Assembly: GCF_041154675.1 (NCBI RefSeq)
Contig: NZ_AP031322.1
Coordinates: 744,001-808,000 of the forward strand
Direction: 5' to 3'
Source of the DNA: Sulfurisphaera javensis
GTDB taxonomy: Archaea > Thermoproteota > Thermoprotei_A > Sulfolobales > Sulfolobaceae
DNA: 64,000 nt
The notes under the pieces are model-generated. The model saw only the letters and a list, made by a program, of their open reading frames with translations. It made no database searches and was not told where the DNA came from. Both the position numbers and the translations under genes were made by a program. The stretch's first letter is position 1, and every line of letters begins with the position of its first letter. This document shows positions 55,853 to 57,809 of the stretch, piece after piece.

Positions 55853-56539
55853 ATGCTACTAATTTATTCAACAAGAGACGAGATAAAAGGGAAAATTCCA
55901 CTAATTCCTATCGGAAGTATTGAACAACATGGTCCTCATTTGCCTATGGGAACAGACTCAATAATAGTTGAAGAAATTGCCAAAAGAGTAGAAAGGAGTA
56001 TGAGAGATAAAATCCTACTTTTCCCTACGATTTACTATACATGCTCTCTTGAACATGGCAATTTACCGTATTTTGGTGTTTCTTATCAAACTTTATTTAA
56101 CTATTTGCTCGATCTCTTAGAGAAGATAAAGGATTACTTTCCTCTTGCAATAATCTTGAACGGTCATGGAGGTAATGAGTCCTTACTTGATTTAGTAAGA
56201 AGACAAGTAAATTTCACTAACTCAAATTTTAAGGTTTACATTTTTTCTTTAGTCGGAAAAGGGAAACAATACTTTAATGTAAATGATCTTCATGCGGGGA
56301 CTGTTGAGTCTTCAGTTATTAAGAGAATAAACTCAGACTTAGTTAGAGAAGAAAAACTAAAAGAAGTAAATTATGAAGTAAAGCAAGGCGTTTTTGAAAC
56401 TATAACAACTTCTGAAGCAAATCCTTTTGGTATAATTAATCTTGACGGTGAAATAAAAATAAATGAACAACTGGGAGAAGAGTTTATCAAAAGGGCCACA
56501 GAAGAACTTATTAATTTCATTAACTCTCTAAACTTTTAA
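55853..56539 (+). CDS. Creatininase-family amidohydrolase
   Basis: A 228-residue protein with the creatininase metal sites: PIGSIEQHGPHLPMGTDS near residue 20 (E and H ligands), LEHGNLPYFG near 65 and NGHGGNES near 100, with a later Glu in GTVESS. Family members hydrolyse cyclic amides or act in cofactor synthesis. The substrate is not evident. The 3' end overlaps the convergent winged-helix gene. Confidence 0.85.
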   Translation: MLLIYSTRDEIKGKIPLIPIGSIEQHGPHLPMGTDSIIVEEIAKRVERSMRDKILLFPTIYYTCSLEHGNLPYFGVSYQTLFNYLLDLLEKIKDYFPLAIILNGHGGNESLLDLVRRQVNFTNSNFKVYIFSLVGKGKQYFNVNDLHAGTVESSVIKRINSDLVREEKLKEVNYEVKQGVFETITTSEANPFGIINLDGEIKINEQLGEEFIKRATEELINFINSLNF

Positions 56540-56735
56540 CTAATTCTTTCCCTTTTTGAGTAAGAACAAATCTCCCCCTTTCCCTTTTTATAATTTCATC
56601 TTTAATTAAGTCATTAAGTTCCCTCTTCAATGCGTCTGTTGAAATATTTAGCTGATCCTTTATATCTTTAAATAATACTGGTCTATCATAAGAATTCAAA
56701 ATTTTAATTATCTTAATCTTTAATTCGCTAAGCAT
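56520..56735 (-). CDS. Winged-helix transcription regulator
   Basis: A 71-residue winged helix-turn-helix: LKIKIIKILNSYDRPV, then DIKDQLNISTDALKRELNDL as the recognition helices, and a wing (IIKRERGRFVLTQKG). I start at ATG 56735, since GTTTATAAAT at 56756-56765 lies about 25 bases upstream; a longer frame to 56789 would begin upstream of that TATA box. An 11-base inverted repeat flanks this TATA box, so the protein probably regulates itself. Confidence 0.75.
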   Translation of the reverse strand: MLSELKIKIIKILNSYDRPVLFKDIKDQLNISTDALKRELNDLIKDEIIKRERGRFVLTQKGKELVKSLES

Positions 56736-56743
56736 AAAAAGGA

Positions 56744-56778
56744 AATAGAGAGGAGGTTTATAAATAATCCTCTCTATT
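56744..56778. promoter_or_regulatory. Inverted repeat flanking the wHTH promoter TATA box
   Basis: AATAGAGAGGA (56744-56754) and TCCTCTCTATT (56768-56778) are perfect 11-base arms either side of the TATA box GTTTATAAAT (56756-56765). Binding of a dimer would exclude TBP. The neighbouring winged-helix protein is the obvious candidate. Confidence 0.6.
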
Positions 56779-57092
56779 AAGAGCTTCAAAGTAGAATCTT
56801 AATTATTACTTATTCTCTTCATCAATTATATTAATTAAAGAATAGCTTAGGATAAGAGATTTTATCTTTAGTAAATTTTACTCAATACTTTTAAGAAACG
56901 CACTCTATCTATAAGTTAGCTCTCTGACAAGAATGAATTTTAGTCGCATCTTTTGTAATTGCTTATAATTTTTATGAATCTAAATCGGAAGATGTTTTAA
57001 AATATTAAGATTATTCTTCTCGAATGAGAAAATAACAAAAGGTGAAGCTTAATTCAGAAAAGTTTTTTACTTTTCTTAATTAGTCAGTAATT
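56779..57092. other. Gene-free region before the ABC ATPase
   Basis: AT-rich DNA with no ORF of note. Near the right end AGAAAAGT and ACTTTTCT (57056-57063 and 57069-57076) form 8-base arms with a five-T spacer, 17 bases before the ATG at 57093. This is a possible operator or transcript hairpin for the ABC operon. Confidence 0.4.
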
Positions 57093-57809
57093 ATGAATTG
57101 CATAGAAGTCAATAATGTTGTTAAGAGATTTGGCAATGTTCATGCTTTAGATGGGATATCGTTCTCTATTCCTTGTGGAGCTAAGTATGCTTTGATTGGA
57201 CCTAATGGTGCTGGAAAGTCTACTACTCTCAAAATTTTATCTGGCTTACTCACTCCAGACTTAGGAGAAGTTAAAATAAAAGGGATGAGACCTAACTCTA
57301 AAGAAGTTAAGAAGATCTTAGGATATCTACCGGAAGATGCTATGCCTTATAGGACTCTAACTGTATTAGAAAACTTGGAATATATTGCTTCATTAAGGGG
57401 AATTCCAAATCCTAGAGAGAAAGCTTTACAAATGATTAATATCTTTGGTTTGCAAGAGTACATGCATACTGAAGCTGGTAAACTTTCAAGAGGAAATTTG
57501 CAACGATTATCTTTAGCCTTAACTATTATTCATGATCCTGAAATAATTCTACTTGATGAACCGCTTAATTATTTGGATATTCCTACTCAGGAACTAGTGA
57601 TTAGCATTCTTAAGTCATATATACTTTCAACCCTTTTAGTCTCAACTCATATAATGTCTATTGCAACTAGATTGGCAACACATGCAATAATTATAAATCA
57701 CGGAAAAGTAGTCTGGGTAGGAAGCATTGATGATTTAAAGAAGATGGGTAAAGAAAATGAGCCAATAGAAAGCATTGTTGCAAGAATAATGACTGGTGGA
57801 ATAACATGA
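57093..57809 (+). CDS. ABC transporter ATP-binding protein
   Basis: A 238-residue ABC ATPase with Walker [10 protein letters not shown], signature [11 protein letters not shown], Walker [12 protein letters not shown] and switch STHIMS. It resembles ATPases of ABC-2 exporters. The stop overlaps the ATG of the permease (ATGA at 57806-57809), so the two are made together. Confidence 0.88.

Follow-up and report, generated by a model that had tools for sequence, protein, structure and literature searches.

Self-control is common among the genes of DNA-binding proteins, and in the leaderless TATA promoters of Sulfolobales the center of the TATA box lies some 26 bases ahead of the start codon. For Lrs14 of Sulfolobales, autorepression by promoter occlusion is reported (PMC2995911), and a C-terminal helix, H4, that forms a dimerizing coiled coil is described for the Lrs14 family (PMC12529230). 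The locus considered here lies in the genome of Sulfurisphaera javensis, a single contig of 2,569,661 bases, within a 64-kb stretch that was analyzed as a whole and is called the window. The G+C content of the window is 31.4% by base counts, and 31.7% has been published for the genome of S. javensis KD-1 (PMC11636327). The gene of interest encodes a 71-residue protein that resembles Lrs14 in being a small winged-helix protein of Sulfolobales that is proposed to bind at the TATA box of its own gene. However, it scored 21.6 bits against the Lrs14 family model (NF040939), for which membership requires 90, it has no evident counterpart of the H4 coiled coil (PMC12529230), and the repeat arms at its promoter are not conserved. 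The best NCBIfam match was to Sso10a (27.2 bits), which was also the second PDB fold match (1r7j), comes from the same order, and is likewise a winged helix. Membership in the Sso10a family (NF053610) calls for 60 bits, however, and the 71 residues compare with 95 in the 1r7j sequence, so that the protein would lack the length for the extended antiparallel coiled coil to which the title of 1xsx refers. The score against the Sta1 family (NF053606) was 20.3 bits versus the required 80. The winged-helix core also superposed on MexR, a MarR-type protein (1lnw_F; TM score of 0.90 by query length and rmsd of 1.0), but with 20% identity and a TM score of only 0.50 by target length, because roughly half of the MexR chain is unmatched. 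In the literature searched, a perfect repeat around the TATA box of such a winged-helix gene was not found.

The winged-helix fold that the first-pass annotation had assigned to the encoded protein was borne out. Pfam HTH_45 (PF14947) was matched with 33.0 bits against a cutoff of 25.5, and single-sequence structure prediction (five models, with mean pLDDT values from 93.2 for the best down to 63.5) gave a winged helix plus a C-terminal helix of 11 residues and nothing more. Relatives with 70 to 74% identity are encoded in all three congeners compared, the Sulfurisphaera genomes G030, G028, and G029; S. javensis was represented by one strain. Weak protein matches in G017, G023, and G016 and a second match in G029 (E values of 1.5e-4 to 8.7e-4) were left out. 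The named relatives in the contig search, from which records near the own genome may have been left out, came from one locus, in Candidatus Aramenus sulfurataquae. A virus origin of the protein was rejected, as none of the 256 stretches of viral contigs that matched a search pattern encodes a relative.

The inverted repeat is present at exactly the coordinates at which it had been described, and its arms are perfect, with 11 of 11 positions paired in direct comparison (Table 1). Both arms do flank the TATA box, though not quite as symmetrically as had been described, as GTTTATAAAT is separated from one arm by a single spacer base and from the other by two. The placement of the box about 25 bases before the ATG was confirmed, and the promoter is of the leaderless type: TTTATAA starts at position −29 in S. 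javensis and two of the congeners and at −30 in the third, and the ATG is kept in all four genomes. The proposed promoter and start codon are thus shared with all three congeners, and transcription would begin at or next to the ATG. The repeat itself had been taken to fix the start codon; the codon stood, but what fixes it is the TATA spacing together with the conserved ATG. An earlier start, TTG at 56789, is disfavored by the conservation of the ATG and by the frame in G030, which is open for only 69 codons, with a 68-residue ORF inside it, although 92 to 95 codons are open in the other three genomes. The creatininase neighbor is kept in the congeners, whole at loci L003 and L004 and with its end visible beside the gene at L005.

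Table 1. Features of the winged-helix locus in window coordinates
Feature	Coordinates	Strand	Description	Basis
Winged-helix protein gene, 71 residues	56520..56735	minus	ATG at 56735, stop codon at 56520-56522	Pfam HTH_45, structure model, relatives
Proximal arm	56744..56754		AATAGAGAGGA on the forward strand, TCCTCTCTATT in coding orientation (minus strand); −19 to −9 relative to the ATG	Direct reading
Spacer, 13 bases, with the TATA box	56755..56767		GGTTTATAAATAA	Direct reading
TATA box	56757..56764	minus	TTTATAAA; center 25.5 bases before the ATG (A at 56735)	Direct reading
Distal arm	56768..56778		TCCTCTCTATT on the forward strand, AATAGAGAGGA in coding orientation (minus strand); −43 to −33 relative to the ATG	Direct reading
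Creatininase family gene, convergent neighbor	55853..56539	plus		Pfam PF02633, E value 4.4e-40
ABC transporter ATPase gene, upstream neighbor	57093..57809	plus		Pfam PF00005, E value 2.5e-29

The perfect stem, with TTTCCTTTTT after it on the minus strand, is what a hairpin in RNA, acting as a terminator or leader structure, might look like. This reading is highly improbable. A leaderless start would leave both arms untranscribed from the winged-helix promoter, among the listed ORFs of 40 codons or more, none on the minus strand falls between 56790 and 57690 that could read into the repeat, and no Rfam family reached its gathering score within 56500-57120.

Conservation of the arms upstream of orthologs had been named beforehand as a check on autoregulation through the arms, and the outcome did not support that claim. 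In an ungapped comparison anchored on the TATA box, 10, 11, and 11 of the 13 spacer bases, which include the box, were common to S. javensis and G030, G028, and G029, respectively, as were 146, 149, and 142 of 200 bases of coding sequence. The distal arm shared only 3, 4, and 4 of its 11 bases with these genomes, and the proximal arm likewise shared 3, 4, and 4 of 11, which is about the random level for each arm. The arms are therefore absent from all three congeners while the TATA box is kept; judged from these alignments, the promoter looks to be under constraint and the arms are not common to the genus. With up to 3 mismatches allowed, the 35-base site was found at one place in its own genome and in none of the three congener genomes. 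When the 83 bases preceding each congener gene were scanned, the best half-site matches covered 8, 7, and 7 of 11 bases and were equaled or exceeded by 97, 409, and 407 of 500 shuffles. The longest perfect arms in the 120 bases upstream of these genes measured 10, 8, and 8 bases; arms at least that long appeared in 7, 61, and 66 of 500 shuffles, respectively. The 10-base arms of G030, with a spacer of 41, extend into the adjoining gene and do not span the TATA box; the 8-base arms of the other two congeners, plus one of 8 in G030, belong to a repeat between divergent genes that is described below. The sole TATA-spanning repeat among the congeners was in G028, with arms of 7, and TATA flanks in the form of a perfect 11-base inverted repeat were found only in S. 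javensis among the four Sulfurisphaera species compared. The distant homologues (in G020, at Aramenus locus L031 in G003, and in G002) had no long upstream repeat; their longest perfect arms in 120 bases were 7, 6, and 5, and 173, 302, and 487 of 500 shuffles, respectively, had arms of that length or more.

Autorepression, in which the winged-helix protein would occupy both arms as an S. javensis-specific operator and block TBP and TFB at its own TATA box, is a possible but doubtful explanation. It is suggested by the layout of the arms around the box and by how seldom a repeat of this kind occurs at a promoter, and promoter occlusion by Lrs14 at its own promoter is reported in Sulfolobales (PMC2995911). 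An autorepressor's operator would be expected to persist wherever orthologues share the recognition helix. At its front, the putative recognition helix (helix 3, with its limits taken from the model) reads TDALKREL in all four Sulfurisphaera proteins, so that a shared operator should look alike across the genus, yet the arms are absent from all three congeners, in which the front of helix 3 and the TATA box are kept, and the complete site, at up to 3 mismatches, is missing from their genomes. The wing reads IIKRERGRFVL in S. javensis and LIKKEKGRYAL, or an ending in -YTL, in the congeners; this difference is in favor of autorepression, since the DNA-binding preference of the S. javensis protein could have shifted. 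The geometry argues the other way. From the coordinates, the arm centers are 24 bp apart, which is about 2.3 turns of B-DNA, so that the arms lie on different faces of the DNA. The protein is shorter than its nearest structural matches, and a bare 71-residue domain contacting both arms would need an oligomer that is not evident in the predicted structure.

We additionally examined how rare the repeat is. The window contains 6 perfect repeats with arms of at least 11 and spacers of 3 to 30, compared with a mean of 1.2 (range, 0 to 4) in 12 dinucleotide shuffles, and long perfect repeats as such are therefore not rare here. Over the 120 bases preceding the ATG, 3 of 500 mononucleotide shuffles reached arms of 11 (spacers of 3 to 45). 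In a 464-kb sample, made up of the window and 400 kb of the same genome, there were 18 perfect repeats with arms of at least 11. Five of these lay outside ORFs of at least 100 codons, and only the one at 56744-56778 spans a leaderless-type TATA box; it is also the longest TATA-spanning repeat among the 151 leaderless-like promoter sites of the sample. A first re-pairing of promoter halves yielded arms of at least 11 in none of 3,020 re-paired promoters. When the halves of the other 150 promoter sites were re-paired, such arms appeared in 19 of 60,000 pairs, but 13 of the 19, with lengths of 16 or 23, were an artifact of two site pairs that represent both strands of the same DNA. Without the artifact the count was 6 in 60,000, or about 1e-4 per promoter for TATA-spanning arms of at least 11, which corresponds to an expectation of about 0.015 in the 151 promoters and about 0.3 across the 2,782 genes of the genome for a repeat that was chosen for its appearance. 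A TATA-spanning 11-base repeat is thus unusual, yet one per genome is not impossible by chance.

The same rarity would be accounted for if the arms were the operator of another S. javensis regulator that controls the winged-helix gene, and binding by the encoded protein would then not be needed. We consider this unlikely, as no regulon was seen: even with up to 3 mismatches allowed, the 35-base site has no second occurrence in the genome, and half-sites outside ORFs showed no excess in the 464 kb. Exact half-sites numbered 6 in the genome, versus 12 for a reversed control, and the 4 beyond the two arms themselves all fall inside ORFs of 328 to 753 codons. Half-sites with up to 1 mismatch outside ORFs numbered 7 in the 464 kb, both arms counted, versus 7, 5, and 4 for the reversed and permuted controls. 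A half-site regulon was rejected on these counts.

Two other repeats were observed in the same genome, outside the window. The first is an inverted repeat of 33 bases, with arms of 14, that reads TATAGTTAACAATA-GTTTA-TATTGTTAACTATA and is located between two ORFs at G000:C1:653898-653930 (L056; about 1490-1522 in L019). It is identical in all four Sulfurisphaera genomes and, at up to 3 mismatches, absent from all 27 other Sulfolobaceae genomes searched. As an operator candidate, it appears far superior to the repeat at 56744-56778. We take the gene downstream of it to resemble a transporter; a 42-residue piece of that gene had no Pfam match. The second observation consists of two identical 21-base elements, TTGTGTA-ATCAGAA-TACACAA, with 7-base inverted arms, at G000:C1:708410-708464 (L041, L060, and L062). 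They lie on either side of a TATA-like stretch that precedes a 440-residue ORF, presumably resembling an ATPase, and the last base of the nearer element is the first base of the ATG. At up to 1 mismatch, both elements were found in G000, a single site was found in G029, and none was found in G028 and G030.

The winged-helix gene of the congeners has a divergent isochorismatase-like neighbor, whose start is 88 bases away in L003 and 83 bases away in L004. Between the two genes lies a perfect 8-base repeat, ATAGTTAA-N5-TTAACTAT, which is identical in all three congeners (L003, L004, and L005; 1747-1767 in L004). It begins 38 bases before the isochorismatase-like ATG and extends across TTTTTTAA, which occupies the TATA position. 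The S. javensis isochorismatase-like gene, 91% identical, is located about 12.5 kb from the winged-helix gene, and its promoter has kept the first arm at 38 bases and lost the second. Outside the window, at G000:C1:2513302-2513766 (L033 and L034), there is a broken second isochorismatase-like copy in two pieces, one of which has a stop inside the match. Within this small genome set, TATA-spanning repeats appear to come and go. It is conceivable, but quite improbable, that the winged-helix protein once controlled the divergent isochorismatase-like gene and, after the two genes were separated, gained a new operator at its own TATA box, which would amount to rapid operator turnover. That this gene adjoins in the congeners and sits elsewhere in S. 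javensis might also point to the repeat as the scar or end of a mobile element. However, the genome contains a single copy of the 35-base sequence, and the TATA-to-ATG distance equals that of two congeners, which indicates that nothing was inserted between them; we give this idea hardly any credence.

The account that we hold to be probable, with some reservation, is that the locus carries a leaderless promoter with a young, S. javensis-specific repeat, the arms of which are not an inherited operator. In this view, TBP and TFB would sit on the TATA block, with transcription beginning at the ATG or next to it. The arms would have arisen in the S. javensis lineage, either by drift or by a palindrome-making mutation such as template switching. 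They would have formed in flanks that had diverged to near-random identity, at a place where the divergent isochorismatase-like neighbor of the congeners does not adjoin, and they may be without function. The rarity of the repeat, its position at the gene of a DNA-binding protein, and the changed wing count against this young-repeat account.

If autorepression were true, the mechanism would be one already known, as reported for Lrs14 of the Sulfolobales (PMC2995911). If the arms were a true operator, the locus would represent a compact thermophilic autorepressor bound around the TATA box, together with operator turnover within one genus. The comparison also carries a caution, in that a textbook-like promoter palindrome can be absent from sister species that share both the promoter and the protein.
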